The translations under genes and the position numbers were made by a program. A model generated the notes under the pieces. It was not told the DNA's origin, made no database searches, and worked only from the letters and a program-made list of their open reading frames with translations. A stretch of DNA of 64,000 bases, taken from Desulfovibrionaceae bacterium (GTDB taxonomy: Bacteria > Desulfobacterota > Desulfovibrionia > Desulfovibrionales > Desulfovibrionaceae). The DNA is taken from the NCBI GenBank assembly GCA_015709205.1, contig JACCQO010000007.1:92492-156491 (forward strand), read 5' to 3'. How positions within the stretch are numbered: position 1 is the first letter of the stretch; each line of letters starts with the position of its first letter. Below are positions 13,393-28,076 of this stretch, in pieces.

Positions 13393-14640
13393 CTAGGCGG
13401 AGCGCCTTGCGGCGCGGGCTTGGTTCCCGGCCGTGCCGCCATCATGGCCGCCCTTGTCCCCGTCGGCGTCCCCGTCATCGCCCCCGACATCGCCGCTCAG
13501 GAGCACGCCGAGCCAGCGCGTGGCGTCGTTGGCGTCCAGGGCCACCTTGATGACCATGGTCAGGGGCACGGACAGGAGCATGCCCACGGTGCCCAACACC
13601 CAGCCCCAGAAGACCATGGAGACGAAGACCACCAGAGGCGAGAGGTTCATGCCCCGGCCCATGAGCCGGGGCTCGATGACGTTGCCCACGACCACGTTGA
13701 CCGCGACGTAGCCGCCGGCCGCGAGCAGCGCCGTGCCGCCGCCGAGCTGCACCAGGGCCAGGAGCACGGCGGGCACGGCCGCGGCCACCGAGCCGATGGT
13801 CGGCACGTAGTTGAGCAGAAAGGCGAGCAGCCCCCAGAGCACGGCGTAGTCCACGCCGAGCACGGCCAGCCAGAGCCCCAGCGCAAGGCCGGTGCCCAGG
13901 CTGACCAGGGTCTTCAGGGCCATATATTCCTTGATCTTGGCGATGGCCAGGGTGAAGCGCGGCAGGTGCGAATCCGGGTCGCCGAAGGCCGCGCGCAGCT
14001 TGGCCGGGAACCCGGCGGCCTCCAGGAGGATGAAGACCACGGTGAGCAGGATCAGGAAGGCGTCGCCGAGCACGCCGCCCAGGCCGCGGAGCATGGACGA
14101 GGCCACGCGCAGGGCCACGCCGGGGTCGAAGAGCCCGCGCAGCGCGGCGTCCGGCACGGGCAGCCCGTGCGCCGCGAGCCAGGCGTAGAGCCCGGCGGTC
14201 TGTTCCGAAAGGCGCGCCTGGTAGGCGGGCAGGGAGTTGCTGAAGCCCGTGACCGAGGTGCCGATGACCGCGAGCACCAGGGCCCCGGCGAGCACGATGG
14301 TCCCGAGCACCACGAGCAGTGCCGCGGCCTTGGGCACGCCCCTGCCCTGCAGCCAGAACAGCGGCGGCGCGGCGGCCACGGCCACGAAGGCCGCGAGCAG
14401 GAACGGCGCCATCAACGGCTCGGCCGCGCGCATGCCCGCGACCACGATGACGAAGGCCGCCAGCCCAAGGAGCACGCGCAGCCCCAGGGAGCGCTGCGCG
14501 CGGCCCGCTCCGGGCGGGGGGCCGGAGCGCGCCGAGGACGCCCCGGAGACCGGCGCGGCGGCGGGCGGCGCGCCGGAAACGGATCTGGAGTCGGATCTCG
14601 GCGCGGCCTGCGACTCGGGCTGGGGACCGGAGGGGGCCAT
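13393..14640 (-). CDS. AI-2E family transporter (PerM/TqsA-like)
   Basis: The 415-residue protein belongs to the AI-2E exporter-like family (PF01594). After a disordered Pro/Ser/Ala N-terminus (about 45 residues) there are around eight membrane segments. The family signature region NYVPTIGSVAAAVPAVLLAL and VVVGNVIEPRLMGRGMNLSP is intact. The tail after residue 385 is Asp/Gly-rich and soluble. Members export quorum signals, Na+ or other small molecules; substrate unknown here. The ATG starts two bases after the stop of the upstream gene and has no ribosome site of its own, so translation is probably coupled. Confidence 0.85.
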   Translation of the reverse strand: MAPSGPQPESQAAPRSDSRSVSGAPPAAAPVSGASSARSGPPPGAGRAQRSLGLRVLLGLAAFVIVVAGMRAAEPLMAPFLLAAFVAVAAAPPLFWLQGRGVPKAAALLVVLGTIVLAGALVLAVIGTSVTGFSNSLPAYQARLSEQTAGLYAWLAAHGLPVPDAALRGLFDPGVALRVASSMLRGLGGVLGDAFLILLTVVFILLEAAGFPAKLRAAFGDPDSHLPRFTLAIAKIKEYMALKTLVSLGTGLALGLWLAVLGVDYAVLWGLLAFLLNYVPTIGSVAAAVPAVLLALVQLGGGTALLAAGGYVAVNVVVGNVIEPRLMGRGMNLSPLVVFVSMVFWGWVLGTVGMLLSVPLTMVIKVALDANDATRWLGVLLSGDVGGDDGDADGDKGGHDGGTAGNQARAARRSA

Positions 14641-14642
14641 GG

Positions 14643-14954
14643 TCAGGAGAGCAGAAGGATGAAGGTGATCAGGGTCATGATCCAGCACATGAAGAAGAGC
14701 GTGTCGTGCTTGATGGCCTGGTCCTCGAGCCTGCGCCGATGCTGCTCCATCATCATCATCTCCTGCTCCACCCAGAAGTCGATGGCCTTGGTGTCGTAGC
14801 CCTTCTCCTCCATCTCGCGCTTCATGAACTGCAGGGAATCGCTCTGCGACAACCCGTACCAGCGCCCGGCGCGCTGGAACTTCATGACCACGTAGTAGGC
14901 GGCGAGCAACAGGGCATAGACGGCGACGAGAATGATGACGGTCGATGTGCTCAT
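14643..14954 (-). CDS. Small two-segment membrane protein, unknown
   Basis: The 103-residue protein has an N-terminal membrane segment (STVIILVAVYALLLAAYYVV) and a C-terminal one (FFMCWIMTLITFILLLS). Between them is a soluble, methionine-rich helical loop (WVEQEMMMMEQHRRRLED). No family was recognised. It ends two bases before the AI-2E transporter start, so the two are cotranscribed and probably translationally coupled, which suggests an accessory role. No good ribosome site is seen at 14954. Confidence 0.65.
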   Translation of the reverse strand: MSTSTVIILVAVYALLLAAYYVVMKFQRAGRWYGLSQSDSLQFMKREMEEKGYDTKAIDFWVEQEMMMMEQHRRRLEDQAIKHDTLFFMCWIMTLITFILLLS

Positions 14955-15172
14955 GGCGCTGTAATCGGGGGGTGCGGGGACATCGTGCGGGAGTGCCGTC
15001 CATCCGCTAGCCACCCCGTCCCCACTCGCACTATGCCAGCTGTGCGCAACCAAGGCAACTCATTCCGGATGTTGCGTATCGTCTGGACGATCCCGCCGCC
15101 CCCGATTCCCGGAACGGCGCGGCCGCCCGGGCCGCGGGCCCGGCCCCGCCCTTTCGGCCCGCGCGGCGCACG

Positions 15173-15204
15173 AAAAAAACGGCCGCGCCCGGGGGCGCGG
15201 CCGT
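15173..15204 (-). terminator. Rho-independent terminator of the TRAP operon
   Basis: On the minus strand ACGGCCGCGCC pairs with GGCGCGGCCGT (stem 15179-15189 / 15194-15204), followed by a run of seven T (15173-15179). It sits 33 bases after the permease stop. Confidence 0.88.
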
Positions 15205-15236
15205 GGGGCGGGCGTTGCCGTGCGGCTCTCGGACGA

Positions 15237-17333
15237 CTACCAGGCAGCCACGCGCTTGGGGTTGTTGGCCCTGGCCCGGGGGCCCTGGGCCAGATAGAGC
15301 AGCCCGAAGAGCGCGATGCCGATGAGACAGCACCAGTAGCGCTGCTCGTGGGGCACGCCGAGCAGGTCCGCCGTGGCGTCGGGCCGGAGCATGACCAGGG
15401 TGATACAAAGCATGAAGGGGATCTCGTACCAGCGGTTGTTGGTCCGCAGCCAGCCCTGCGTGGCCGAGGCAAAGGCGAAGTTGCCGATGCAGGCCGTGAC
15501 GAAGATCATGATCGCCATCGGGAAGCTGTCGATGTCGTGCAGGATCAGGTCGTGGTTGAAGATGAACATGAACGGCAGGATGGCCGTGCGGATGTCGTAG
15601 AGGAATCCCTGGATTCCCGTGGGAATGGGCGGGGACTCCGCAATGGCCGCCGCGGCGTAGGCCGCCAGGCCCACGGGCGGGGTGTCGTCGGCCAGGATGC
15701 CGAAGAAGAAGCAGAACAGGTGCGCGGCCATGAGCGGCACGATGAACCCGTAGTCGCCGCCGATGTGCACGATGGCCGGGGCCGTGAGCGAGGCCATGAC
15801 GATGTAGGTGGCCGTGGTCGGCAGCCCCATGCCGATGATCAGGCTGGCCACGGCCGTGATGACGAGCATCAGGTAGATGTTCCCTGCCGAGAGCACGTCG
15901 ATGATCTGGGTGATGAGCCCGCCCAGGCCCAGGGCGACCACGCCCACGATGATGCCCGCCGCGGCCGTGGCCATGGCCACGCCCGCCATGTTGCGCGCGC
16001 CGTCGGCCAGGGAGATGAACACGTCGCCGAGCGCTTCCAGGATGGCCGGGCCCACGGGACGATTGGCGCGCATGGCCATCACGGGCTTCTGCACGAGCAT
16101 GACCGCCGCGAGGACCACGATGGCGTTGAAGGCCGCCAGCTCGGGCGAGTGGCGCAGGACCACCAGTTCGTAGAGCAGCATGCACAGGGGAATGAGGTAG
16201 TGCACGCCGGAGAACAGGGTCTTGAACAGCGGCGGCAGTTCGGAGCGCCGCATGCCCCGCAGGCCCAGCTTGGAGGCCTCCACGTGCGAGATGTACAGAA
16301 GCGAGGCGTAGGACACGAAGGCCGGAACGGCCGCGGCCTTGATCACGTCCACGTAGGGCACGTTGACGTATTCGGCGATGATGAAGGCGGCCGCGCCCAT
16401 GATCGGCGGGGCGAGCTGGCCGTCGGTGGAGGCGGCGACCTCGATGGCCGCGGCCTTGGTGGCCGGATAGCCGACCTTCTTCATCAGCGGGATGGTGAAG
16501 GTGCCGGTGGTCACGATGTTGGCGATGGACGAGCCCGAGACCATGCCCGTGAGGCCGGAACCCAGGATGGCGGCCTTGGCCGGGCCCCCCTTGAAGCCGC
16601 CGAGCAGGGACAGGGCCAGCTTGATGAAGTAATTCCCCGCTCCGGCCTTCTCCAGCATGGTGCCGAAGAGCACGAAGAGAAAGACGATGGTCGCGGACAC
16701 GTCCAGGGGGATGCCGTAGATGCCCTCGGAACTCATGGACATCTGGCCCACGAAGCGGTCCAGGGACACGCCCTTGAAGGCGATGACGTCGGGCATGTAG
16801 GGCCCGGCGAAGGCGTAGGCGATGAAACCCAGGGCGATGACCGGCAGGGCCGGGCCGATGATGCGCCGGGTGGCCTCCAGCAGCGTGACCACCAGGACCA
16901 CGCCGAGGATGATGTCGCGCTCGATGGGCATGCCGTAACGCATGGCGATGCCGTCGTAGTCGAGCACGATGTAGAGGGCCGCGCCCACCGAGGCCACGCC
17001 GAGCAGGATGTCCAGAAAGGTGATGCGTCCGAAAAGCAGCAAGTATTTGAGGTCGGGCCTGCGTTTGGGATGATATTTGATGAAGGGGATGTTGAGATAG
17101 ATGAGGATCAGGCCGAAGGCCAGGTGGATGGCGCGGATGTAGATGGAGTCCAGCAGCAGCCAACTGGCGATGCAGAGCTGGAAGATGGACCACGTCACGG
17201 CGATGACGATGGTCAGATTCCTGCGGAACCCCTTTCCGGCCCAGCCCAGGCCGGATTCGGTCTCGGCCAGCTGCTGCGCGTATTCCACTCCCGTGAGGTT
17301 TTGTTCATCGACATTCGGCGGCATACTCGGCAT
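15237..17333 (-). CDS. TAXI-type TRAP transporter, fused DctQM permease
   Basis: The protein of up to 698 residues is the membrane component of a tripartite ATP-independent periplasmic transporter with small and large subunits fused. The large-subunit half shows GFKGGPAKAAILGSGLTGMV, SIANIVTTGTFTIPLMKK, VAASTDGQLAPPIMGAAAFI and IIGMGLPTTATYIV. About 18 membrane segments are predicted. Import is driven by an ion gradient and needs the TAXI binding protein encoded just upstream. Start is either 17333 or the in-frame ATG at 17324, which has AGGG nine bases before it. The substrate is unknown; many TAXI systems carry dicarboxylates or glutamate. Confidence 0.93.
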   Translation of the reverse strand: MPSMPPNVDEQNLTGVEYAQQLAETESGLGWAGKGFRRNLTIVIAVTWSIFQLCIASWLLLDSIYIRAIHLAFGLILIYLNIPFIKYHPKRRPDLKYLLLFGRITFLDILLGVASVGAALYIVLDYDGIAMRYGMPIERDIILGVVLVVTLLEATRRIIGPALPVIALGFIAYAFAGPYMPDVIAFKGVSLDRFVGQMSMSSEGIYGIPLDVSATIVFLFVLFGTMLEKAGAGNYFIKLALSLLGGFKGGPAKAAILGSGLTGMVSGSSIANIVTTGTFTIPLMKKVGYPATKAAAIEVAASTDGQLAPPIMGAAAFIIAEYVNVPYVDVIKAAAVPAFVSYASLLYISHVEASKLGLRGMRRSELPPLFKTLFSGVHYLIPLCMLLYELVVLRHSPELAAFNAIVVLAAVMLVQKPVMAMRANRPVGPAILEALGDVFISLADGARNMAGVAMATAAAGIIVGVVALGLGGLITQIIDVLSAGNIYLMLVITAVASLIIGMGLPTTATYIVMASLTAPAIVHIGGDYGFIVPLMAAHLFCFFFGILADDTPPVGLAAYAAAAIAESPPIPTGIQGFLYDIRTAILPFMFIFNHDLILHDIDSFPMAIMIFVTACIGNFAFASATQGWLRTNNRWYEIPFMLCITLVMLRPDATADLLGVPHEQRYWCCLIGIALFGLLYLAQGPRARANNPKRVAAW

Positions 17334-17452
17334 CCCTATTCGTTTGTTTTCGCGGGCCGCACCCGCCGGCGCGACGGGCCGGGCCCGCCCACCGCACGCC
17401 GAACGCCGAGCCCGAAAAACGGGCGCGGCGCCGGACGGAGAAATGTGGAACG

Positions 17453-17487
17453 GCGGACCGGACGGGCGCGGGGCCCGTCCGGTCCGC
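17453..17487 (-). promoter_or_regulatory. Perfect 15-bp intercistronic hairpin in the TRAP operon
   Basis: GCGGACCGGACGGGC (17453-17467) pairs perfectly with GCCCGTCCGGTCCGC (17473-17487). It lies between the binding-protein stop and the permease start and has no T-run. Such elements commonly protect the upstream mRNA and give more binding protein than permease. Confidence 0.6.
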
Positions 17488-17501
17488 GGAACGGAAACGA
17501 C

Positions 17502-18482
17502 TTACTTGAGGAGGCCGGCTTCCTTGTAATAGCGCATGGCGCCCTCGTGAATGGGGGCGGACAGGCCTTCCAGCATGCTCTCCTTGGTCAGGTGGGCATA
17601 GGCCGGGTGCAGGCTCTTGAACTGGTCGAAGTTCTCGAAGACTTCCTTGGTGATCGCGTAGACGACGTCGGCGGGCACCTTGGCCGAGGTGACCAGGGTG
17701 GCCTTCACGCCGAAGGTCTTGACGTCCTTGTCGTTGGCCGCGCCGGGGTAGTCGCTGATGGCGATGGTGGCTTCGGCATAGTAGGGCTTCTCCTTGACGA
17801 CCTTGGCCACGCCGGGACCGGTCACGTCGAGGATGCGTACCTTGCGCTTGCCCGCGGTGGCTTCCTTGATGGCGCCGGAGGGGTTGCCCACGGTGTAGAA
17901 GAAGGCGTCCAGACGGCCGTCCTGGAGCAGGCCCGGGGCCTCGGCGGCCTTGATGTACTCGGCCTTGATGTCCTTTTCGGGATCGATGCCCACGGCGACC
18001 AGGGCGTCGATGGAGTTCTGCAGGGTGCCGGAGCCGTGGTTGCCCAGGTTCACGACCTTGTCCTTGAGGTCGGCGACGGTCTTGATGCCCGCGTCTTCGG
18101 CGGCGCAGAGCACGATGGTCTCGGGATGGATGGAGAACACGGCGCGCAGGTCCTTCTGGGGGCCACGGTCCTTCCACTCTTCGAGGCCCTTGACGGCCTG
18201 GTACTGGCGGTCGGACTGGGTCACGCCGAAGTCCAGGTCGCCGGAAAGCACGGCGTTGATGTTGAACACGGAGCCGCCGGTGGACTCGACCGTGGCGCGG
18301 ATGCCGTAGACGTCGCGCTTCTGGTTCACGATCTTGGCAATGGCGCCGCCGGTGGGATAGTACACGCCGGTGATGCCGCCGGTGCCGATGGTCACGAAGG
18401 TCGTCTTGGCGGACGCCAGCGAGGCCATGGCCAAAAGCAGCGTCAGGCTCGCAACGGCGCATAGGGTGACAAGTTTCTTCAT
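17502..18482 (-). CDS. TAXI family TRAP transporter solute-binding protein
   Basis: The 326-residue periplasmic protein has a signal peptide ending at ASLASA and then TFVTIGTGGITGVYYPTGGA, the hallmark start of TAXI binding proteins. LDFGVTQSDRQYQAVKG and LGNHGSGTLQN are typical ligand-contact regions. It delivers substrate to the permease encoded downstream. GAGGAGG lies seven bases before the ATG. The 327-base region between it and the divergent ATP-grasp gene contains the plus-strand promoter at 18745-18773 and a minus-strand TTGACA at 18666-18671 without a convincing -10. Confidence 0.94.
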   Translation of the reverse strand: MKKLVTLCAVASLTLLLAMASLASAKTTFVTIGTGGITGVYYPTGGAIAKIVNQKRDVYGIRATVESTGGSVFNINAVLSGDLDFGVTQSDRQYQAVKGLEEWKDRGPQKDLRAVFSIHPETIVLCAAEDAGIKTVADLKDKVVNLGNHGSGTLQNSIDALVAVGIDPEKDIKAEYIKAAEAPGLLQDGRLDAFFYTVGNPSGAIKEATAGKRKVRILDVTGPGVAKVVKEKPYYAEATIAISDYPGAANDKDVKTFGVKATLVTSAKVPADVVYAITKEVFENFDQFKSLHPAYAHLTKESMLEGLSAPIHEGAMRYYKEAGLLK

Positions 18483-18744
18483 CGGAAAGCCTCCTCGATG
18501 GTTAGTGAGTTGCCGTCATCGCGTACGCCCGGGCGCAACGCGCCCGGGGCCTCCCCAACGGTAGGACAAAAAGAAAAAGCGGACCTGACGGCCCTGGCCG
18601 CCCCGTCGGCAACACCGCGGGGTTTCGGCATTCTGTCGAATGAAGTAGCAGAAGAAACCTGAAATTGTCAATGTGGACGCAGAATTTCCAAAATGTAGAC
18701 TCTTGCGGTGAAATGCTATAAATGTAAAAATATCCATCTTCCGG

Positions 18745-18773
18745 TTGCATGCTCCGGGTCGAAGGACTATACT
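18745..18773 (+). promoter_or_regulatory. Putative promoter of the ATP-grasp operon
   Basis: TTGCAT (18745-18750) is separated by 17 bases from TATACT (18768-18773, five of six matches). The transcript would start near 18780, about 30 bases before the ATP-grasp ATG. Confidence 0.5.
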
Positions 18774-18809
18774 GCCGCCCCATTGCGCCTGCTGTGCCGG
18801 ACCGCCCCA

Positions 18810-20204
18810 ATGAACGACATCATCTTCACCAATGTCCGCCTCGATCCGGACACCTACTACGTCTTCTATGTGGGCGAAATGAAGGCCTACGGACTCAACG
18901 AGTTCGTGCACCAGGCCATCGGTCGGCACACCGAGCGCAAGACCAGGATCATCTCCATCGTCTCCGACGTCCTGGAAGACTACCCCCACGACAACATCAT
19001 CGTCATCAACCCCGAGGCCTTCGCCCAGGGCATCACGGCCCGCTCGCGCGTGTCCATGCGCATCCCCATCACCCGCTTCGCGCGCCACGTCTCGGCCAAC
19101 GCCTTCGTGCGCGAGACCGCCAGTTCCATCCTGCAGAGCCAGGACGAGCTCTACGTCTGGATGTTCGAGTCCAAGCCGGAATTCACGCTCACGCGCATTC
19201 CCGGGGTCAGGCTCCTGGGGCCCGACCCGCTCTTGGCCGCCAAGTTCAACAACAAGATCTGGCAGTACAACACCTTTCGCGGACACATTCCCATTCCGGA
19301 CTACCAGATCTGCCACGGGGCGACGCAGCTCGCCGAGCTCACCGCGCGCCTCAGGCCCGAGTGGGCCGACGGCATCTTCGTCTCCCTGGAATACAGCGCC
19401 GCGGGCATGGGCTCCATGGTCACGCGCACCCAGGAGGACGTCACCGGTCGCTTCACCGACGAGGAGGCCTACTGCTTCGTCAGCCGCTACATGATCCACG
19501 ACTACGACCCCACGGTGCTCGCCGTGGTGGCCAACGAGGACGACGTGTTCGTGGCCGGGGTGGCGGACCAGCGCATCGAGAACGGCAACGCCTTCCGCGG
19601 CTCCACCTTTCCCTCGGTGCTCGACGTGCGCGTGCAGGAGGAACTCTGCGAGCACACCCGCACCGTGGGCCGGCTGCTCGGCAAGCGCGGCTACCGGGGC
19701 ATCTTCGGCTGCGACTTCATCGTCACCCCGGACGGGCGGCCCTTCTTCATCGAGGCCAACACGCGCAAGCAGGGCACGACCATGGAATTCTGCTGCGCCA
19801 TGGAGAACCTCCTGCCCGAGGGTTCGCCCAACCTCCTGGAGCTGGAATACTTCGCCGTGACCCGGAACCGTTTTCCGGAGAACACGCCCGCCTCGCCCGA
19901 GTGTCTGGACGCCTCGTGCGGCTGCAAGCTGCACTGGGGCACCTACAACAACAAGGTGGACCACTCCATCCGCACGGCGCACAACATCTACCAGACCATG
20001 GGCGAGCGCGACCTCTTCCGGCGCGCTGCCTCGGGCGGCTCGGGCGGGCACCTGATCCTGGAACACGTGGGCACGGACATGATCGTCAAACCCGGCACCT
20101 TCCTGGGCCGCGTGGTCGCCGTGGACTCCTCGCGCCGGCGCATGCTCGAACGGCTGCGACAGGGCGAGGAACAGCTCATGCGCTCGGTGCGCGCCGAGGC
20201 CTGA
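18810..20204 (+). CDS. ATP-grasp ligase, novel operon gene 1
   Basis: The 464-residue protein has the ATP-grasp C-terminal signature: GYRGIFGCDFIV (about 294-305), then DGRPFFIEANTR (308-319), giving Asp302, Glu315, Asn317 and Arg319 as metal/ATP contacts. LLAAKFNNKIWQY near 141 resembles the start of the central domain. ATP-grasp enzymes join a carboxylate to an amine or thiol through an acyl-phosphate. The approximately 140-residue N-terminus and the cysteine-containing segment CLDASCGCKLHWGTYNN are not recognised. No ribosome site is seen, and the leader is short. It heads a tight operon with a methyltransferase, an aminomutase and an M20 peptidase, so it probably activates or conjugates an amino acid. 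Confidence 0.85.
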   Translation: MNDIIFTNVRLDPDTYYVFYVGEMKAYGLNEFVHQAIGRHTERKTRIISIVSDVLEDYPHDNIIVINPEAFAQGITARSRVSMRIPITRFARHVSANAFVRETASSILQSQDELYVWMFESKPEFTLTRIPGVRLLGPDPLLAAKFNNKIWQYNTFRGHIPIPDYQICHGATQLAELTARLRPEWADGIFVSLEYSAAGMGSMVTRTQEDVTGRFTDEEAYCFVSRYMIHDYDPTVLAVVANEDDVFVAGVADQRIENGNAFRGSTFPSVLDVRVQEELCEHTRTVGRLLGKRGYRGIFGCDFIVTPDGRPFFIEANTRKQGTTMEFCCAMENLLPEGSPNLLELEYFAVTRNRFPENTPASPECLDASCGCKLHWGTYNNKVDHSIRTAHNIYQTMGERDLFRRAASGGSGGHLILEHVGTDMIVKPGTFLGRVVAVDSSRRRMLERLRQGEEQLMRSVRAEA

Positions 20205-20227
20205 CCCCCGGCCCGCAGGAAACGGAC

Positions 20228-21058
20228 ATGGCCCCCAACCCAGAAAAACGCCCCCAAGCCCCCTCCCCTGCTCCTGCCTCACCCTCCACGGCGGCCCGGC
20301 TTCCGCCCAGCGGGCCGTTCGCCGGGCTCCGCGAAGGGCCCGTGGACCAACGCGCCTACTGGGAACGCGTCTCGTCCGTCAAAACCTACACCACGCCCCT
20401 GGCCGTCGAACCCTTCACCCGCCTGGTGCCGCGCGGCGCGCGCGTGCTGGACGCGGGCTGCGGCTACGGCCGCACCCTGGCCGAGCTCGCGGACCTGGGC
20501 TACCGCCCCGTGGGCGCGGACTTCGCCCACGCGGCGCTCGCGCGCGGCCGCGCCATGGGGCTGGCCGCGCCCCTAGCCGTCGGTTCGGCCCTGGCCCTGC
20601 CCTTCGCCGCCGCCTCCTTCGACGCCGTGGTCCTGCTGGCCGTGCTCACCTGCGTGGTGCGCGACGCGGACCAGCGCGCCGTGGTGGCCGAGGCGCGCCG
20701 CGTGCTCAGGCCCGGCGGAGCCCTGCTGGTCAACGACTTTCTCCTGGGCGACGACGCGCGCAACCGCGAGCGCTACGCGCGCTTCGCCCCGGTGCACGGC
20801 ACCTACGGCGTGTTCGAGGTGGACGGCAACGCCCTGGTGCGGCACCATGATCCGGCTTGGATCGACGAACTGCTCGCACCCTTCGCCGTCGCGCACCGGG
20901 AGGAGCACCTTTTCACGACCATGAACGGCAACACGGCCCGGGGGTTCACCTATCTGGGCCTGGCCCCGAACCCCTGCCCCCCCCAACCCTCCGACCCGCA
21001 ACCCCAAAAAGGAGAGCGGACATGCAACAGGACAACGCCCCGGAACTCGACGCCCTGA
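20228..21058 (+). CDS. SAM-dependent methyltransferase, novel operon gene 2
   Basis: The 276-residue protein is a class I methyltransferase: VLDAGCGYGRTLAELADLGY is motif I, FAAASFDAVVLLAVLTCV covers motifs II-III, and EARRVLRPGGALLVNDFLLG is the region after motif III. It would methylate a small molecule using SAM. AGGAAACGGAC precedes the ATG, 23 bases after the ligase stop. Its 3' end overlaps the next gene by 37 bases, so translation is coupled. The C-terminal Pro/Gln-rich tail (about 20 residues) lies in this overlap and is probably not functional. Confidence 0.85.
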   Translation: MAPNPEKRPQAPSPAPASPSTAARLPPSGPFAGLREGPVDQRAYWERVSSVKTYTTPLAVEPFTRLVPRGARVLDAGCGYGRTLAELADLGYRPVGADFAHAALARGRAMGLAAPLAVGSALALPFAAASFDAVVLLAVLTCVVRDADQRAVVAEARRVLRPGGALLVNDFLLGDDARNRERYARFAPVHGTYGVFEVDGNALVRHHDPAWIDELLAPFAVAHREEHLFTTMNGNTARGFTYLGLAPNPCPPQPSDPQPQKGERTCNRTTPRNSTP

Positions 21059-22596
21059 CCAGGACCCTGTTCGAACGGCTGGACTCGGGCTCCGGCGAGG
21101 CCTCGGCGCAGACCAAAAACACCCTGCGCGCCCTGTACGACGCGGCGGCCGCCGCGGACCTCACCCAGCCCATCGTGGACTTTTTCTCGGCCCTCAAGGC
21201 CGCGCGCGAACAGGAGAACGCGTCCCCGGCCTCGGCGGGCTTCGGCCGCGAGGATCTGGCCGCCCTGGCCGCGCGCCACGCGGCCATCGACGAGCACCGC
21301 GTCACCGTGGGCGGCCGCGTTGGCCGCGCCCTGGAGATCCGCGACGCGGCCAACGCGCGCGTGGACGCCTACCTGGCGGCCAAGGACGTGGAGGCCCCCA
21401 GCGGCATCGAGCTCTGGGACCGCATCCTGGAGAACCAGGCGCGCATCAAGAAGGCCCTCGGCATGGATGAGGCGGCCTGGAACTCCTTCAACGGCCAGTT
21501 GCAGTACGCCATCAACGACGTGGAGACCCTGGCCCGGTGCATCGACCTGCCCGCCGACGCCATCCGCGACGTCACCCGCGTGACCAAGAGCTACCGCATG
21601 CGCGCCACGCCCTACTACGCCTCGCTGATCATGCCCGGCGCGGCCAACGACCCGGTGCTGCTGCAGGCCGTACCCACGGCCGAAATGGTCGATACCGTGG
21701 GCGAGGAGATCCCGCCCGTGGCCTCGGACCACTCCCCCGCGCGGTTGGTGGACCAGTTCTACCCGCGCGTGGTGGCCGTGAAGGTCACCAACATCTGCGC
21801 CATGTACTGCACGCACTGCCTGCGCATCGCGCACATCGGCTCCGAGGACCGCACTTTTCCGCGCGCGGCCTACCAGGAAGCCCTGGACTACATCGCGAAA
21901 AACGAACGCATCCGCGACGTGCTCATCACCGGCGGCGACGCCTTCATGCTCTCCAACACCAACCTGCGCTGGTTCCTGGAAAAGCTCGACGCCATCGAGC
22001 ACGTGCGCCTGAAGCGCTTGGGCACCCGCGTGCCCGTGACCACGCCCCAGCGCGTGGACGCCGAGCTCCTGGACATCCTCGAGGGGTCCAACGACCGCAA
22101 GCCCCTGCGCGTGGTCACCCAGATCAACACGGCCCAGGAGATCACCCCGGTCTCGCGCGAGGCCTTCAAGCGCATCTCGGGGCGCGTCTTCGCCGTGCTC
22201 AACCAGGCCGTGCTGCTGCGGGGCATCAACGACTCCAAGGCCAAGATGTGGAAGCTCTGCGAGACCATCCAGGAATCCTACGTGCGGCCCTACTACATCT
22301 TCAACTGTTCCTACCGGAACCCCCAGTACTTCCACATGCGCGTGCCCGTGGAACAGGGCCGCGACATCGTCGAGGGCATGTACGGCAACATCTCCGGCGA
22401 CGCGGTGCCGCGCTACATCGCCGCGGCCGGGGGCAAGATTCCCCTGCACCGCGACAACCTCGTGGAGCGCGGCGACGGCGTGGTCGTGCTGCGCAAGCCC
22501 TGGTCCGGCGAGACCACGCGCTATCCGGACGCGGACCCGGCGGCCTACGCCGACGACACGGACTTCGCCTTCAACAAGTACGGGGACGGCAAGTGA
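21022..22596 (+). CDS. KamA-family radical SAM aminomutase of unknown substrate, novel operon gene 3
   Basis: The 524-residue protein belongs to the lysine 2,3-aminomutase family, which moves an amino group from C2 to C3 using SAM, a [4Fe-4S] cluster and PLP. The cluster motif is Cys259-x3-Cys263-x2-Cys266 (CAMYCTHC), LITGGDAFML is the GGD motif, and Lys472 in AAGGKIPL is the PLP lysine. The two aspartates that hold the lysine side chain in authentic lysine 2,3-aminomutase (Asp293 and Asp330 there) are Ser430 and an alanine here; the Lys/Asn pair of glutamate 2,3-aminomutase is absent too. An extra helical N-terminus of about 190 residues is present. AAGGAG precedes the start, inside the methyltransferase gene. 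Confidence 0.9.
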   Translation: MQQDNAPELDALTRTLFERLDSGSGEASAQTKNTLRALYDAAAAADLTQPIVDFFSALKAAREQENASPASAGFGREDLAALAARHAAIDEHRVTVGGRVGRALEIRDAANARVDAYLAAKDVEAPSGIELWDRILENQARIKKALGMDEAAWNSFNGQLQYAINDVETLARCIDLPADAIRDVTRVTKSYRMRATPYYASLIMPGAANDPVLLQAVPTAEMVDTVGEEIPPVASDHSPARLVDQFYPRVVAVKVTNICAMYCTHCLRIAHIGSEDRTFPRAAYQEALDYIAKNERIRDVLITGGDAFMLSNTNLRWFLEKLDAIEHVRLKRLGTRVPVTTPQRVDAELLDILEGSNDRKPLRVVTQINTAQEITPVSREAFKRISGRVFAVLNQAVLLRGINDSKAKMWKLCETIQESYVRPYYIFNCSYRNPQYFHMRVPVEQGRDIVEGMYGNISGDAVPRYIAAAGGKIPLHRDNLVERGDGVVVLRKPWSGETTRYPDADPAAYADDTDFAFNKYGDGK

Positions 22597-23786
22597 TCGA
22601 ACAGGCCCGCGCCTTTGTGGCGCAGAAGGAATGGGAGCTCTTTTCGCTCCTGGGGCAGCTCTGCGGCATCAACAGCCACACGCCCAACCGCGACGGGACC
22701 AACGAAGTGGGCCGGGCCATCCGCCAGGCCTTCCTGGACATCGACCTGCCCGGCGGCGTGACCGTGGAGGTCGAGGAACGCGCCGAGGTCGGCGACATCC
22801 TCCTGGTGCGCACCGAGGCCTGCCAGCGGCACGAGAAGCAGATCCTCTTCTGCGGGCACATGGACACCGTGTTCCCGGAGACCTGCGGCTTCGACTGCGT
22901 GCGCCCGGCCGGGCCCAAGGTCGTGGGCCCGGGCGTCATCGACATGAAGGGCGGGCTGGTGGTCGCCATGTACGCCGCCGCGACCCTGGGGCATCTGGGG
23001 CTGCTTGCGGACATGCCCGTGGCCTTTCTCTTCAACTCCGACGAGGAGACCGGTTCCCTGCACTCTCGCGACGCGATCCTGCGCGAAGCCGCGCGTTCGG
23101 CCTTCGCCTTCGTTTTCGAGTGCGGCGGCCTGGGCGGCGAGGTGGTCACGGGCCGCAAGGGCAAGGTCACCTACCGCGTGGACGTGGAGGGCAAGGCCGC
23201 GCATCCTGGCGTGATCGGCGGGCGCGGCCAGGGCAAGAGCTCGGCGATCCTGGCCATGGCCCACAAGATCGTGGGGCTGGAGGCGCTCAACGAGCCGGAA
23301 AAAGGGCTTTCGGTCAACGTGGGCGCGGTGCGTGGCGGCACGGCCGCGAACATCGTGCCCGACCGCGCCGAGGCCCTGGTGGACACGCGCCACGTGTACC
23401 GCGCCGACGGCCGCCACCTGGACCAGGCCGTGCGCCACGTGGTCGAGGCGGCCCACGCCCCGGGCACGCACGGCAGCTACGCCGTGGTCTCCGAGCGCCC
23501 GGCCATGGAGCAGAACCGCGCCAACCGCACGCTCTTCGCCGTGGTGCGCGAGACGGGCGCGGCCCTGGGCCAAGAGATCGAGGAGGAATTCCGGGGCGGT
23601 GTGTCCGACGCCAACTTCATCGCCGAGGCGCGCTGTCCGGTCATCGACGGCATGGGCCCTTGCGGGGACAAGGACCATTCCCACGAGGAGTACATGGTCC
23701 GCGCCAGCCTCATGGAGCGCACCGTGCTCACGGCCCTGAGCGCGGCCGAATGCTGGAAGCGCCATACGGACGGCACCCTGTTCTAG
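22593..23786 (+). CDS. M20 family metallopeptidase (carboxypeptidase G2-like), novel operon gene 4
   Basis: The 397-residue protein is a di-zinc amidase/peptidase of the M20 family. Expected ligands and catalytic residues are present: His89 and Asp91 in FCGHMDTVFPE, Asp117 in GVIDMKGG, Glu151/Glu152 in NSDEETGS, Glu176 in FECGG, and the C-terminal histidine in GDKDHSHEEYM. The closest known architecture is carboxypeptidase G2, which removes C-terminal glutamate. The GTG start overlaps the aminomutase stop (GTGA), which indicates translational coupling. No signal peptide, so the enzyme acts in the cytoplasm. It may hydrolyse or mature the product made by the ligase of the same operon. Confidence 0.88.
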   Translation: MIEQARAFVAQKEWELFSLLGQLCGINSHTPNRDGTNEVGRAIRQAFLDIDLPGGVTVEVEERAEVGDILLVRTEACQRHEKQILFCGHMDTVFPETCGFDCVRPAGPKVVGPGVIDMKGGLVVAMYAAATLGHLGLLADMPVAFLFNSDEETGSLHSRDAILREAARSAFAFVFECGGLGGEVVTGRKGKVTYRVDVEGKAAHPGVIGGRGQGKSSAILAMAHKIVGLEALNEPEKGLSVNVGAVRGGTAANIVPDRAEALVDTRHVYRADGRHLDQAVRHVVEAAHAPGTHGSYAVVSERPAMEQNRANRTLFAVVRETGAALGQEIEEEFRGGVSDANFIAEARCPVIDGMGPCGDKDHSHEEYMVRASLMERTVLTALSAAECWKRHTDGTLF

Positions 23787-23811
23787 GCGCAGCGAGCGCA
23801 TATGAAACGCG

Positions 23812-23850
23812 AACGGCCCGATCCCCCTGCGGGGACCGGGCCGTTTTTTT
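23812..23850 (+). terminator. Rho-independent terminator of the four-gene operon
   Basis: AACGGCCCG...CCCC pairs with GGGG...CCGGGCCGTT and runs into seven T, starting 25 bases after the M20 stop. Confidence 0.92.
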
Positions 23851-23866
23851 GCGGTTGCGCCGCGCG

Positions 23867-24370
23867 TCAGGTCGAACGCGCCGTTTGGCGCTCGGCGTAG
23901 TCCGAAGCGCGCAGGATGAGGTCGAGCAGAAGCAGGGCGTTGGAAAGGTCCTTGCGGTTGGCCGGGGTCATGGCCAGGGTGACGGTGCGCTTGAGCTCGC
24001 CCACGAGCATGGCCCGCCGGATGCGCGCGTCCGGCCCCTGGTTCTGGCAGGAATCCAGCAGGAGCAGGAGCATGCGTTGCCAGTCCACGGAGCCTCCGTG
24101 TCCCGAGTCCGGGCCCGCCTCCGATCCCGAGTCCGGGTTGACGTCCCAGGTCCCGTCCACTTCCGTCGGGCCGTCGTCCGTGCCCAGGTGCCAGTCCAGG
24201 ATTTCGCGGACCTTGAGCACGCCGAAGACCATGCCTTCCAGGGTGGCGTAGTTGCGGCCCAGGAGCGCGCCGTCGTTGATGCGCGGCGGTGCGGGCGCGA
24301 GCAGCGCGCCGATGCCGCGCCGGGCGTACTTGCGTCGCCGGTAGATATCCAGGGCGATGACGCCGGTCAT
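23867..24370 (-). CDS. Hypothetical protein
   Basis: I do not recognise this 167-residue soluble protein. It starts MTGVIALDIYRRRKYARRGI, has a Gly/Asp/Ser-rich low-complexity stretch in the middle (NPDSGSEAGPDSGHGGSVD), and ends in helices (DLSNALLLLDLILRASDYAE). GGAGG lies upstream of the ATG at 24370. It converges on the four-gene operon and shares no transcript with it. It is a single gene with an AT-rich island (24511-24540) in its upstream region. Confidence 0.65.
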   Translation of the reverse strand: MTGVIALDIYRRRKYARRGIGALLAPAPPRINDGALLGRNYATLEGMVFGVLKVREILDWHLGTDDGPTEVDGTWDVNPDSGSEAGPDSGHGGSVDWQRMLLLLLDSCQNQGPDARIRRAMLVGELKRTVTLAMTPANRKDLSNALLLLDLILRASDYAERQTARST

Positions 24371-24754
24371 GTCCCCCCCTCCTTCGAGGCCGGGCGCCGG
24401 GCAAACCGCGCGCGCAGCCGATGCTGAGATGCTGACGTCCACGGCGTCGGGTCCCCCGGGCACGTCGCCCCCGGACCGGTCCGCCTACCCTCTCTTCGGC
24501 GCGCGCGGTGATTCCTTTAGACATTTAGAAAAAGTCTAGACCGCATAACCGTAACCCGGGCGACACGCGCCGGTGACACGGCGCGGCTAGGAAGACGAAA
24601 CCGTGACCGATCGACCCGGCCCAGGCCGCCGGACCGCCCGTTCCCGGCCGCCCGCGAGGCGGCCCGGCCAGGAGCGGCTCCCGGCGGCACTCCCCGAGGC
24701 CTCCCGGCGGACCACTCCGGTCCGTCGGCGGCGCGCCAGACCAAAGGAGACGCC
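24371..24754. other. Gene-free region between divergent genes
   Basis: The 384 bases separate a minus-strand hypothetical gene and a plus-strand GNAT gene. The only distinct feature is an AT-rich island at 24511-24540 with the near-palindrome TTAGAC...GTCTAG, which may be the hypothetical gene's promoter. The rest is GC-rich with no motif I can name. Confidence 0.4.
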
Positions 24755-25300
24755 ATGTACGCCCTTCGTTACGCCGGTTCCGAGGATGCTCCCCTGCTCG
24801 CGGCCCTGCGCGCCGAACTCATTGACGAACTCACGGGCGGCGGCACGGAGGAACACCGGCTCCAACTGGACGCCCGCGCCCTGGCCCACGAGATGGACGC
24901 GGGGCGGCTGGCGGCCTGGGTGGCCGTGGACGGCCGCGGCAACGCCGCCGCCTGCCTGCTGATGGCCTTTGCCGTGCGCCCGCCGCGACTGTGGGATTCC
25001 GGCGGCCTGCACGCCTACGTGGCCGGGGTGTACACCCGGCCTGGGCACCGCCGCCTGGGGCTGGCTGCGCGGCTGGTGAACTCGGCCGTGGACCACTGTC
25101 GCCTGGCCGGGGTGCAGGACATCTCCCTGCACGCCACGGACAAGGGCCGCGAACTCTTCGCCGGGCTCGGCTTTTCCGGCTTCGAACCGGACGCCGCCTG
25201 GACCCCGGGCAAGGCCCCGGGCAGAGCGGCCGACGACTCCCGCGACGAGGACGAACTGCCCTGGCTCGGGGCCGACGCGGGCATGGCCCTGCCCGCCTAG
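24755..25300 (+). CDS. GNAT family N-acetyltransferase 1
   Basis: The 181-residue protein has the GNAT fold with the acetyl-CoA pyrophosphate loop in YTRPGHRRLGLAARLVNSAV and the C-terminal motif GRELFAGLGFSGFE. It would move an acetyl group from acetyl-CoA to an amine; the substrate is unknown. AAAGGAG precedes the ATG. It resembles the next gene over the whole fold (both start with an RYA/RYVLRRA-type strand and share the TRP-x-HRR-x-GLA loop), so the two may be an old duplication. Known beta-lysine pathways pair an aminomutase with a GNAT, which makes its proximity to the KamA-like gene suggestive. Confidence 0.85.
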   Translation: MYALRYAGSEDAPLLAALRAELIDELTGGGTEEHRLQLDARALAHEMDAGRLAAWVAVDGRGNAAACLLMAFAVRPPRLWDSGGLHAYVAGVYTRPGHRRLGLAARLVNSAVDHCRLAGVQDISLHATDKGRELFAGLGFSGFEPDAAWTPGKAPGRAADDSRDEDELPWLGADAGMALPA

Positions 25301-25381
25301 CCCGTTTCCGACGGCCCTGCCGCCCTCTTACCGGGCCGGTTCGCCACCACGTTTTTTCCGGGCTCTCCTCGCCGGTTCCCG

Positions 25382-25427
25382 CCAGCCCGGTGCGCCCTCT
25401 CCCGTCTTGCGGGGCGCACCGGGCTGG
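25382..25427. promoter_or_regulatory. Perfect 16-bp inverted repeat upstream of GNAT 2
   Basis: CCAGCCCGGTGCGCCC (25382-25397) pairs perfectly with GGGCGCACCGGGCTGG (25412-25427), loop 14 bases. The right arm fills the spacer of a possible promoter (TTGCGG 25407-25412, TATTCT 25430-25435). It could be a terminator for GNAT 1 or an operator for GNAT 2; no T-run follows. Confidence 0.5.
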
Positions 25428-25442
25428 GATATTCTCCGCGCC

Positions 25443-26042
25443 ATGTGCGCCGCAGCAGCCCCCGGGCCCACGCCCGCCCCTTCCGAACATCCCGCGCCCC
25501 GCGCCCGGCGCTACGTCCTGCGCCGCGCCGACCCGACGGACGTGGCCACGCTCGGCGCCTTCCGGCTGGCCATGTTCCGGGCTCTCGGGCTCGTGCCCCC
25601 TGGCCCCGCGGAGCGTGCCGAAACCTTTGCCGAAGCCGACAGGCGCGTGCTGGCCGAGGACCTGCGCACCGGGCGCATGGTCGCCTGGCTGGCCATCGCG
25701 CCCGAGGGCGGGCCCGACGAGGGCGAGCCCGTGGCCTGCGTGGCCCTGAGCTTCTACCACCTGCCGGCCAAGCCCTGGAACCTCGAGGGCGGCTACGCCT
25801 TTCTCTCCAGCCTTTTCACCCGCCCCGAACACCGGCGCAGAGGCCTGGCCCGCCGCCTGGCGGCCGAGGCCCTGGACCTGGCCCGCGCCTCGGGCGTGGC
25901 CGCCGTGACCCTGCACGCCGCCCCGGCGGCCCGTGAACTCTACGTCGCCCTGGGCTTTGTTCCGACCAACGAGATGCGCCTTGTCCTGCACCCCGCACCC
26001 GACACCCCGCTCCCCCCACCTCAACCGGGAAGTGAATCATGA
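25443..26042 (+). CDS. GNAT family N-acetyltransferase 2
   Basis: The 199-residue protein has the acetyl-CoA loop FTRPEHRRRGLARRLAAEAL and the closing ARELYVALGFVPTNEMRLVL, after a Pro/Ala-rich N-terminus of about 20 residues. It would acetylate an amine of unknown identity. The ATG at 25443 lies only about eight bases from a possible -10, so the message may be leaderless or nearly so. Its stop overlaps the start of the D-glutamate cyclase-like gene (ATGA), which ties the two in one coupled unit. Confidence 0.82.
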   Translation: MCAAAAPGPTPAPSEHPAPRARRYVLRRADPTDVATLGAFRLAMFRALGLVPPGPAERAETFAEADRRVLAEDLRTGRMVAWLAIAPEGGPDEGEPVACVALSFYHLPAKPWNLEGGYAFLSSLFTRPEHRRRGLARRLAAEALDLARASGVAAVTLHAAPAARELYVALGFVPTNEMRLVLHPAPDTPLPPPQPGSES

Positions 26043-26824
26043 GCACCACCTTCGCCTCTCCCCGCGAACTTCGCATGGCCGCTCGCGAAGGCCGCTTCGA
26101 CCGGCCCACGCCGGGCCTGTGCCCCGGCCATGTCCAGGCCAACATGGCCATCCTGCCGCGCGACCTGGCCGTCGATTTCCGCACCTTCTGCGAAAAGAAC
26201 CCCAAGCCCTGCCCCCTGCTGGAGGTCATCGAGCACGGGGCCGAGCCCGTGCACCTGGCCCCGGGCGCGGACGTGCGCACGGACCTGCCGCGCTACCGCG
26301 TCTGGCGCAGGGGCGAGTTCGAGGAGGCCACGGACGTGCGCGACGTGTGGCGAGACGACCTCGTGACCTTTCTGATCGGCTGCAGCTTCACCTTCGAGGG
26401 CGGGCTCATGGACGCGGGCATCCGGCTGCGCCACGTGGAACTGGGCACCAACTGCACCATGTTCGTGACCAACATCGCCTGCGCAAGCGCCGGGCCCTTC
26501 CGGGGCAACATGGTCGTGTCCATGCGCCCGATCCCGGACGCGCTGGTGGAGACGGCCTACTCGATCACGGGCCGCTATCCGGCGGTGCACGGCGCGCCCA
26601 TCCACGCGGGCGATCCGGCGGCCATAGGCGTGGCGGACATCATGCGCCCGGACTTCGGCGACGCCGTGGAGGTCAAGGCCGGAGAAACCCCGGTCTTCTG
26701 GGCCTGCGGCGTGACCCCGCAGGTGGCGTTGATGAACGCCAAGCCGGACCTGGCCATCACCCACGCCCCCGGGCACATGTTCGTCTCCGACCGGTTGGAC
26801 GCCGAATACGAGGTCGCGGGCTAG
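26039..26824 (+). CDS. DUF1445 / D-glutamate cyclase-like hydro-lyase
   Basis: The 261-residue protein belongs to the YcsI/DUF1445 family (PF07286), annotated as putative hydro-lyase and forming the N-terminal half of mitochondrial D-glutamate cyclase, which converts D-glutamate to 5-oxo-D-proline. Family features are RPTPGLCPGHVQANMAILP near the start, FLIGCSFTFEGGLMDAGI in the middle and FWACGVTPQ with HAPGHMFVSD at the end. It overlaps GNAT 2 by four bases. The convergent gene at 26924-27985 encodes the DUF4392 half of the same vertebrate enzyme, so the two probably act on the same metabolite. Confidence 0.85.
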   Translation: MSTTFASPRELRMAAREGRFDRPTPGLCPGHVQANMAILPRDLAVDFRTFCEKNPKPCPLLEVIEHGAEPVHLAPGADVRTDLPRYRVWRRGEFEEATDVRDVWRDDLVTFLIGCSFTFEGGLMDAGIRLRHVELGTNCTMFVTNIACASAGPFRGNMVVSMRPIPDALVETAYSITGRYPAVHGAPIHAGDPAAIGVADIMRPDFGDAVEVKAGETPVFWACGVTPQVALMNAKPDLAITHAPGHMFVSDRLDAEYEVAG

Positions 26825-26852
26825 CGTCCCGCCCGCCCGGCCGCGCAAACGC

Positions 26853-26890
26853 CGAAGGGCCCGGCTCCCCCTGGAGAGCCGGGCCCTTCG
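26853..26890. terminator. Bidirectional terminator
   Basis: CGAAGGGCCCGGCTC (26853-26867) pairs perfectly with GAGCCGGGCCCTTCG (26876-26890), between the convergent DUF1445 and DUF4392 genes. Confidence 0.7.
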
Positions 26891-26923
26891 CGTTGCGGTC
26901 CGTGGAACGGCGCGCCGGGCGCG

Positions 26924-27985
26924 CTAGGCCTTCATTTCGCTCTGCAGGATGGTGCGCCAGTCCGCGCCGATGTCCATGCCGCGCCGGACCATGCCGCGCA
27001 TGGCGCGCACCAGCCCGGCCCACTCCAGGGCCGGAATGCCGTCCACCGCGGGCACGGGCGACAGGCTCCCGCCGTCCACGCCGCCCGCATTGGCCGTGAG
27101 CTCGATGGCGCGCTGCTCCCACTCGGGCTCGTGCATGATGTCCATGCGCCCCAGGGTCAGGGCCAGGGCCGCGATGATGCCCGTGCAGCCCCAGTTGGAC
27201 ACGCAGGAGACCACCAGGAAGTCGGCCGGGGTCACGGCCGCCGTGCCGCCGCCGCAGCCGCAGCCGCAGCTGCGGGCCTGGGGCAGCACGCGCAGCACCG
27301 CGTCCTGGATCAGCCCCATGCCCAGCTCGTTGCCGCCGTCGCCCACGCCGAGGATGGTGATGCCGCGCTCGCGCGCCTTCTCGAACATGTGGTCCAGGTC
27401 CGCGACCCAACCTTCCAGAGTGCGGCCGTTCATGCCGTGGTAGCGGCCCATCTCGTTCTTGCCCGGCCGCTCCACCGCGATCATCAGGTGCGGGTCGATG
27501 TCGTCGAGGATGCGTTCGCCCACTGCATGGCTCTCGGCGCGATCGCGCGGCACGGTGCGGATGAAGACCTGGCGCAGGTAGTGCTCCTCGCGCACGCCGC
27601 CGGAACGCAGGGGCTGGGGCGAGATGCCCGCGCCGATGCAGGCCGCGCCGACCACGTTCTCCCAGCCCTCGTCCGTGACGATGACCGTCTGCGCGCCCAC
27701 GGCGCGGTACAGGGCGCGCGCCAGAAACGCCGCGCCCACGGGACCGTCGGTCTCGGGCACGCCCGCGCCCATGGGAAAGCCCGTGGCGATGATCACCCGT
27801 CCGCCCTTGGGCGGCAGGGCCGACAGGATGCGGTCCGCCGCGCCCAGGCACATGGGCCCGGGCAGCACCTTCTGCTGGGCCGCGAAAAATTGTGGACTCA
27901 CGCCCAGGGCCGTGAGGTCCTGGGTGGTGAAGGTGTCGATGGCCCGGGCCAGGTCGAGCATGGTCTTCTGGTCGCGTGTGGTCAT
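26924..27985 (-). CDS. DUF4392 protein (D-glutamate cyclase C-terminal-like)
   Basis: The 353-residue protein matches the DUF4392 family (PF14336). Recognisable blocks are IIATGFPMGAGVPETDGPVG, RAESHAVGERILDDIDP, GVGDGGNELGMG and NWGCTGIIAAL. A cluster of cysteines (RSCGCGCGGG, then VVSCVSNWGC) might bind a metal. In vertebrates this domain is fused to DUF1445 in D-glutamate cyclase; here the two are separate convergent genes. The start at 27985 follows GGGGAAC. Enzymatic role is by family analogy only. Confidence 0.82.
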   Translation of the reverse strand: MTTRDQKTMLDLARAIDTFTTQDLTALGVSPQFFAAQQKVLPGPMCLGAADRILSALPPKGGRVIIATGFPMGAGVPETDGPVGAAFLARALYRAVGAQTVIVTDEGWENVVGAACIGAGISPQPLRSGGVREEHYLRQVFIRTVPRDRAESHAVGERILDDIDPHLMIAVERPGKNEMGRYHGMNGRTLEGWVADLDHMFEKARERGITILGVGDGGNELGMGLIQDAVLRVLPQARSCGCGCGGGTAAVTPADFLVVSCVSNWGCTGIIAALALTLGRMDIMHEPEWEQRAIELTANAGGVDGGSLSPVPAVDGIPALEWAGLVRAMRGMVRRGMDIGADWRTILQSEMKA

Positions 27986-28042
27986 GGTTCCCCATTGACG
28001 CCCGCGCAAGGCGCGGACGGTGGTTGAAATTGGCAGGAAGCA

Positions 28043-28076
28043 AGAAAAGGGCCGCGCACCTCTCGTGCACGGCCCC
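28043..28076 (-). terminator. Terminator of the ilv operon
   Basis: On the minus strand GGGCCGTGCAC pairs with GTGCGCGGCCC (one G-U pair) and is followed by TTTTCTT. It lies about 80 bases after the ilvC stop. Confidence 0.8.

Follow-up and report, generated by a model that had tools for sequence, protein, structure and literature searches.

A conserved ATP-grasp, KamA-type aminomutase and M20 hydrolase locus of sulfate-reducing and other bacteria, with a possible role in beta-glutamate metabolism

What might a bacterium make with a putative ATP-grasp ligase, a KamA-family radical S-adenosylmethionine (SAM) aminomutase and an M20 hydrolase encoded one behind the other? The question is raised by a four-gene operon on contig JACCQO010000007.1 of the Desulfovibrionaceae assembly GCA_015709205.1 (4.25 Mb, 120 contigs), within a stretch of 64,000 nucleotides called here the window, where a methyltransferase gene stands between the ligase and the aminomutase genes. 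A first-pass annotation of this DNA had proposed that the four enzymes make and trim a methylated, beta-amino-acid-containing conjugate. The reading that we put forward, with slightly less than even confidence, is that the operon would convert glutamate to its beta isomer, link this isomer through an amide bond and cleave the amide again, perhaps with the product as a compatible solute.

The ATP-grasp, KamA and M20 genes form a conserved locus

The conserved locus consists of an ATP-grasp gene, a gene for a KamA-type enzyme and a gene for an M20 hydrolase, often together with a TAXI-TRAP transporter, and many bacteria carry it, sulfate reducers and others, most of them anaerobes, with Desulfobacterota and Campylobacterota among its hosts. 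Scanning species genomes with a profile of the ATP-grasp protein yielded 99 relatives, and the locus counts refer to the best 80 of these 99; most of the loci come from metagenome-assembled genomes, judged by title, neighbours were detected by tblastn at E 1e-8, neighbour genes were chosen by simple open reading frame (ORF) rules, and three pairs (L045 and L065, L046 and L123, L054 and L141) are copies from the same contigs. KamA adjoined the ATP-grasp gene in 77 of the 80 loci (in one of them, L125, M20 and KamA lie on the opposite strand), and in the remaining three the contig stops less than 180 bases from the ATP-grasp match. The gap between the two genes had a median of 4 bases and was 100 bases or less in 66 of 76 loci (starts by a simple rule); in two genomes, L046 (the contig of L123) and L126, both enzymes are encoded by a single ORF. 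M20 was matched in 52/80 loci, and half of the other 28 have less than 1.2 kb of sequence after KamA. TAXI/TRAP genes were present in 22 of the 29 loci that are fully flanked (9 kb or more ahead of ATP-grasp and 6 kb or more behind KamA).

The association was also seen when whole genomes were counted. Among 297 genomes of the phylum, ATP-grasp was found in six, with KamA adjoining in the window genome and three others; operon-type KamA (>250 bits) was likewise found in six and both genes in four (Fisher p 7e-7, or 2.3e-5 without the window genome). The distance matrices of the two proteins correlated with r 0.68 (n=68, 0/1000 permutations as high), a correlation that shared species history alone can give. 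A search of 120 genomes of the family with the ATP-grasp protein gave nine matches including that of the window, and each of the five family operons retrieved (L138–L142) has the TRAP-TAXI genes divergent from ATP-grasp, KamA and M20, in the order of the window and without the methyltransferase. A second, different pairing was observed in L048, L049 and L143 (genomes G277, G213 and G378), where a distant ATP-grasp gene is followed by one for a B12-binding radical SAM protein with DUF4070 (assigned by Pfam in L048 and L049 and by eye in L143). Literature searches, whose coverage mostly excluded the subscription literature, returned no description of an ATP-grasp/KamA/M20 locus.

The first-pass annotation had treated all four genes as one set. 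Its layout was exact, since four co-directional genes on the plus strand are separated by a 23-base gap and then by overlaps of 37 and 4 bases, and rare co-occurrence, which would have told against its proposal, does not hold for ATP-grasp, KamA and M20. It had overlooked the transporter at 15237–18482, which is part of the conserved neighbourhood, and it had included the methyltransferase, which is not: this gene was found in 0/80 related loci (tblastn, E 1e-8) and in 0/5 family operons. Relatives of the methyltransferase at E 1e-25 occur in 22 of the 120 family genomes including that of the window, the best with 51–53% identity. All three that were fetched have an M48 (htpX-type) protease gene upstream, and two of them, L155 and L156, also have one of trypsin/PDZ (DegP) type directly 5′ of the methyltransferase relative. 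Most simply, then, the methyltransferase is a local insertion, present in the operon only in the window genome among the loci examined.

These data bear on the possibility that the system makes a methylated beta-amino-acid conjugate, whether specialised metabolite or signal, and that the methyltransferase is its fourth enzyme. In favour, the window's methyltransferase is translationally embedded in the operon by its gap and its overlap, but the gene is missing from every other locus counted, only one of the 21 other family genomes with a relative (G393) also has the operon, at a distance of 1.58 Mb, and the relatives have protease neighbours; we therefore reject a methylated product as a property of the system and give this explanation very little credence. 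What stands of the first proposal is a plausible conjugate, carried by the co-conserved ligase, aminomutase and hydrolase.

Relation of the enzymes and the transporter to glutamate

The window's KamA protein is a member of the KamA family by its TIGR00238 score (228.6 bits, cut-off 199.2) and falls short of the models of both lysine 2,3-aminomutase (LAM; TIGR03820, 281.6 against a cut-off of 525.4 bits) and glutamate 2,3-aminomutase (EAM; TIGR04368, 333.3 against 650 bits), although the latter is its best match. With TIGR04368 the protein of L060 scored 321.9 bits, two short-form operon proteins came near the cut-off (L047, 632.7 bits, and L118, 578.1 bits; two tested) and L051, an EAM encoded outside the operon, passed it with 716.6 bits. 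Aligned to LAM (2a5h), the window protein keeps CxxxCxxC and the equivalents of R134 and of the lysine for pyridoxal 5′-phosphate (PLP), and has Ser in place of D293 and Ala in place of D330, the two lysine-binding aspartates. EAM reportedly carries Lys and Asn at these positions (Ruzicka and Frey, 2007); L051 has this Lys/Asn pair and the window protein does not.

The KamA alignment comprised the window and 73 of 79 usable rows (L063, L065, L075, L076, L102 and L103 were left out, and L046 and L123, from one contig, were both kept). In the 83 rows counted for operon-type KamA, which include two contigs counted twice, four gapped rows, L050 and L051, position 293 holds Ser 68 times and Lys 11 times and is gapped in 4, and position 330 is Thr in 72; the six short forms displayed combine Lys with Thr. 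A tree of 44 KamA proteins placed 19 operon and EAM rows on one side of a branch (support 100/100; 99% of 200 bootstrap trees), and all 19 lack D293 and D330 and keep R134, whereas the 24 other KamA proteins of the phylum and LAM keep both aspartates. L050, which forms a long branch, and L051 are among the 19 though not beside an ATP-grasp gene, and the window protein groups with L060 (Pseudodesulfovibrio, Desulfovibrionaceae). Lysine and arginine are disfavoured as substrates by the model scores and the pocket residues. We consider glutamate or a close analogue the likely substrate of the operon enzymes; the low EAM score and the Ser/Ala pocket imply that the substrate of the window enzyme may differ.

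The long-form proteins, to which the window KamA belongs, have ~100 extra N-terminal residues and a remodelled side-chain pocket, with an NCS[YF]RNP motif and a deletion of three loop residues before the lysine, which shortens the GGGGK loop. Such remodelling would suit a protected intermediate: ATP-grasp would first turn the side-chain carboxylate of glutamate into a masking amide, after which KamA would shift the amino group on the conjugate and M20 would release the product, much as LysX and LysK act around LysW in lysine synthesis. The pairing of ATP-grasp with M20 and the gene order ligase, mutase, hydrolase agree with this route. Short forms with Lys at the EAM position occur in the same operon, however, suggesting free glutamate as substrate, and no conserved small, LysW-like carrier gene was seen (the screen covered ORFs of 90 amino acids and more; for the space between ATP-grasp and KamA, the 4-base median gap counts against one), so that we hold this route to be improbable.

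Four loci show further particulars around KamA. L050 (1859–3460) encodes a divergent long form (48%) in genome G275, where ATP-grasp was unmatched at E 1e-10; in L139 (7008–8611, minus strand) KamA is split into two frames with the break near query residue 342, which is either real or an assembly error; in L079 (4176–6629) a glutamine synthetase gene and a second KamA gene, with arginine- or lysine-aminomutase-like scores, follow the operon-type KamA; and in L051 (2121–2561, genome G227) an OsmC-family protein (PF02566) follows the model-passing EAM.

The ATP-grasp protein scored 31.4 bits with PF02655 (ATP-grasp_3, cut-off 23.2). Its residues D302, E315, N317, R319 and K320 are invariant in 77/77 alignment rows (the window and 76 of 83 usable rows, without the fused L046, L123 and L126, the copy L065 of L045, the partial L112, and L102 and L105); E and N have a catalytic, metal-binding role in ATP-grasp enzymes. 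A profile search of solved structures ranked BesA, a glutamate ligase, first, followed by biotin carboxylases and PGM1, all as weak matches. That the ATP-grasp enzyme makes the amide is, in our view, fairly likely.

The M20 protein matched both the catalytic domain PF01546 and the dimerisation domain PF07687 above their cut-offs, and its best match in the PDB was carboxypeptidase G2 (1cg2), to which the motifs GHMDT, IDMKGG, DEETGS and FECGG and a C-terminal His align; these motifs hold the metal-ligand residues. Cleavage of the amide by this enzyme is favoured a little less firmly than its synthesis by the ligase. In L114, L115, L116 and L130, from Campylobacterota, a conserved protein of ~165 residues with YGSL/FGSL and LDxRE lies in the M20 position behind KamA. 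These motifs resemble those of gamma-glutamylcyclotransferase (GGCT), which made a replacement of M20 by GGCT attractive; it found no support in Pfam (AIG2_2, best E 0.058, 2/4 members), the PDB or hhalign (probability 1.7% against 11 GGACT proteins, where two of six column shuffles reached 1.7% and 6.5%).

Ligase and hydrolase also bear on whether the operon might make beta-glutamine, with ammonia as substrate of the ATP-grasp enzyme and M20 as an amidase. The nearest named ligases, BesA and PGM1, join amino acids or peptides, and carboxypeptidase G2-like enzymes cleave acyl-glutamate bonds, which together make this a very improbable explanation, even if a glutamine synthetase gene stands beside KamA in L079 and beta-glutamine is named as an osmolyte in the passages cited (PMC1224877).

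The nearest solved chain to the TAXI protein is the glutamate-specific VcGluP (8s4j; 303 bits), in which the side chains that contact glutamate are, in the passages cited, Y45, S75, Q93, E125 and Y200, with D157 and M201 (PMC11574862). The window protein keeps the equivalents of Y45, Y46, S75, Q93, H123, E125 and Y200 and has T at both the D157 and M201 positions. Across 34 TAXI proteins (the window, 29 from related loci and four family members) Y45, Y46, S75, Q93, H123, E125 and G156 are kept in 34/34 and Y200 in 30/34; the D157 position is mostly Q and the M201 position mostly T. By these sequence comparisons the binding protein is probably of the glutamate type, and the TRAP transporter probably belongs to the conserved set.

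A possible route to a beta-glutamate conjugate

A glutamate theme is suggested by the glutamate-type importer, the EAM-related mutase, the ligase that is nearest to a glutamate ligase and the hydrolase that is nearest to a glutamate carboxypeptidase. In the route that we favour, glutamate would be imported through TAXI-TRAP or drawn from the cell pool, and KamA, using PLP and a 5′-deoxyadenosyl radical, would move the alpha-amino group to C3, giving beta-glutamate, or would act likewise on a closely similar analogue. The ATP-grasp enzyme would then activate a carboxylate as acyl phosphate and join beta-glutamate and a second amino acid or amine into a non-protein, dipeptide-like amide, which the carboxypeptidase G2-like M20 enzyme would cleave when the compound is recycled; the product might be a compatible solute, made and dismantled. 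We infer every one of these reactions, as well as the partner, the product and its osmotic role. Synthesis with optional recycling is suggested, because the ligase is nearly constant with the mutase and the hydrolase is usual but not constant.

The reverse direction was also considered: TRAP would import beta-glutamate or a beta-glutamyl conjugate released by neighbours, M20 would free beta-glutamate and KamA, aminomutase reactions being reversible, would return it to alpha-glutamate as a nutrient. The presence of a transporter and a hydrolase in the set speaks for such scavenging, as does the GntR/FCD-type regulator gene that immediately precedes ATP-grasp in 21/87 loci (one member checked in Pfam), since regulators of this type often control uptake and catabolism. 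An ATP-consuming ligase, on the other hand, is the most constant partner of KamA, even fused to it in two genomes, and would have no role in simple breakdown, while M20 is the part more often missing; we judge scavenging unlikely.

Several observations weigh against the synthetic route that we prefer. The window KamA scores about half the EAM cut-off (333 against 650) and has Ser/Ala where EAM has Lys/Asn; the operon-type KamA L050 comes from a genome, G275, where ATP-grasp was unmatched; and in three family genomes the ATP-grasp is distant (37–40%) and has another neighbour, with no KamA in the stretch fetched. The match to BesA is weak and local, with biotin carboxylases ranking next, and the TAXI positions D157 and M201 differ from VcGluP in 34/34 rows. 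In 14 loci M20 is absent although the sequence runs on for at least 2.2 kb behind KamA, 7 of the 29 fully flanked loci lack TRAP genes, and the GntR/FCD-type regulator in 21/87 loci counts here as well. The hosts include Desulfoprunum and Desulfobulbus records, which are not known to be halophilic, and searches for Na+ and c-di-AMP riboswitches gave nothing convincing in the window at 14000–30000 (E 1) or in seven of the 80 loci, where only two tRNAs reached the gathering threshold.

That the product is an osmolyte is possible but rather doubtful. Several hosts belong to genera from soda lakes or the sea. Beta-glutamate and beta-glutamine are established osmolytes (PMC1224877, in the passages cited), and eam genes are found elsewhere under Na+ riboswitches (PMC9337991, likewise); since none was found here in the regions searched, the osmotic role is offered as a conjecture. 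Taken at its widest, the proposal would be an undescribed, widespread beta-glutamate dipeptide, a "bacterial carnosine" made by a divergent EAM and a new ATP-grasp enzyme as a recyclable solute, fed by a dedicated glutamate-type TRAP transporter, in Desulfobacterota, Campylobacterota and others, and in this full form we think it unlikely.

The locus nevertheless offers a testable route to a beta-amino-acid metabolite in many environmentally important anaerobes, gives a TAXI-TRAP subgroup and an unnamed ATP-grasp family a likely partner pathway, and is a natural case of aminomutase pocket remodelling within one operon, from a Lys form to a Ser-[Tyr/Phe]-Arg form. An osmolyte role, if true, would be relevant to salt tolerance in sulfate reducers and other anaerobes, a subject on which the cited part of a 2005 review names trehalose and inorganic salts in two halophilic species (PMC1224877).

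The operon in the window and its closest known systems

The features of the window are collected in Table 1.

Table 1. Genes and signals at and around the operon in the window (gene starts inferred)
Feature	Position	Strand	Basis
ATP-grasp ligase, unnamed family (464 aa)	18810–20204	+	PF02655 ATP-grasp_3 above cut-off; BesA nearest solved relative
Class I SAM methyltransferase (276 aa)	20228–21058	+	Sequence-family matches
KamA-family radical SAM aminomutase, long form (524 aa)	21022–22596	+	TIGR00238; CxxxCxxC, R134 and PLP-lysine equivalents
M20 metallohydrolase, carboxypeptidase G2-like (397 aa, GTG start)	22593–23786	+	PF01546, PF07687
TRAP substrate-binding protein of the TAXI family, probably glutamate type; divergent from operon	17502–18482	-	51% identity to 8s4j (VcGluP)
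Fused TRAP permease subunit	15237–17333	-	TIGR02123, 626.6 bits
Rho-independent-type terminator hairpin with T run, 3′ of operon	~23811–23850	+	Folding against shuffles
GNAT acetyltransferase, operon membership uncertain	24755–25300	+	Pfam
Second GNAT acetyltransferase, operon membership uncertain	25407–26042	+	Closer match to GNATs of L138, L139 and L141

Purine-rich, ribosome-binding-like stretches lie 5′ of the methyltransferase and KamA ATGs, and GC at third codon positions is 0.88–0.95 across the four operon genes. The strong terminator that had been claimed after the operon was confirmed (a 57-base stretch at -32.4 kcal/mol, z -4.2, with 0/200 shuffles folding equally well), although a simple terminator scan of the window did not list the hairpin; two sub-threshold Pxr matches at 23757–23903, which overlap the terminator, were regarded as chance hits. 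The claimed promoter is weak: TTGTCA-18-CAAAAT at 18665–18694, with 9/12 matches, is the sole sigma-70-like site in 18400–24000, where 0.2 were expected by chance. An operator search of the divergent promoter region in the window and six relatives found no shared k-mer beyond shuffles.

Universal-stress-protein-like genes occur in 22/87 loci (one examined with Pfam). Downstream of M20, GNAT matches are present in L139, L141 (the contig of L054) and L138, and in the window a minus-strand gene and the terminator lie between the operon and the GNAT genes; in L138 a 377-residue ORF downstream of M20 (13206–14339) combines an N-terminal NYN with a C-terminal GNAT domain. Farther along the window, two D-glutamate-cyclase-type domains adjoin on opposite strands, PF07286 (26039–26824, plus) and PF14336 (GLUCM-like C; 26924–28009, minus), which are fused in a mitochondrial enzyme; the PF07286 protein was unmatched in L045–L131 and L138–L143. 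On the other side, two tandem small, secreted-looking proteins (7286–7759 and 7840–8262) have FAEQYQW..HFPK in common and resemble a recent duplication; for the second, Pfam gave no match at E 0.001.

EAM is of the same fold family and on the same side of the tree, without the lysine-binding aspartates, and the two operon short forms tested come near the cut-off of its model with 578–633 bits. The window KamA differs from it in its score, its N-terminal extension, its shortened GGGGK loop and in Ser/Ala for the reported Lys/Asn of EAM, and nearly every operon locus has an ATP-grasp neighbour. The ablA/ablB system for N-epsilon-acetyl-beta-lysine shares a KamA-family maker of a beta-amino acid, the osmolyte logic and possibly a GNAT nearby. 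The window KamA is, however, far below the AblA cut-off with both aspartates gone, ATP-grasp and M20 stand in the operon instead, and neither window GNAT matched the AblB model (NCBIfam, E 0.001).

N-acetylglutaminylglutamine amide (NAGGN) clusters follow a similar ligase and peptidase logic for a dipeptide osmolyte, with an asparagine-synthase-like gene, a GNAT/ATP-grasp fusion and an M42 peptidase. The operon genes are of other families, with KamA and M20 instead, and no NAGGN families appeared in the Pfam matches of the four operon genes (other neighbours were partly scanned). The carnosine system likewise combines a beta-amino acid, an ATP-grasp ligase (ATPGD1/CARNS1) and cleavage by a dipeptidase, carnosinase, of which CN1 belongs to the M20 family. 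It is made of animal enzymes that act on beta-alanine and histidine, with no aminomutase and no operon; the passages cited name the ATPGD1 ligase and the CN1 dipeptidase (PMC3407494).

In the incednine branch (IdnL4, IdnL3) a radical SAM enzyme is likewise proposed to convert glutamate to the beta-glutamate of a conjugate, although the expected activity of IdnL4 was not observed in vitro; the product is a polyketide starter made with a decarboxylase, and the cited part of that paper names no ATP-grasp or M20 enzyme (PMC11284099). VcGluP, finally, is the nearest solved TAXI relative and shares the glutamate-contacting side chains and a UspA neighbour, whereas D157 and M201 are changed in the proteins of the operon loci and its own context is, in the passages cited, argR, mdh and uspA, not KamA (PMC11574862).

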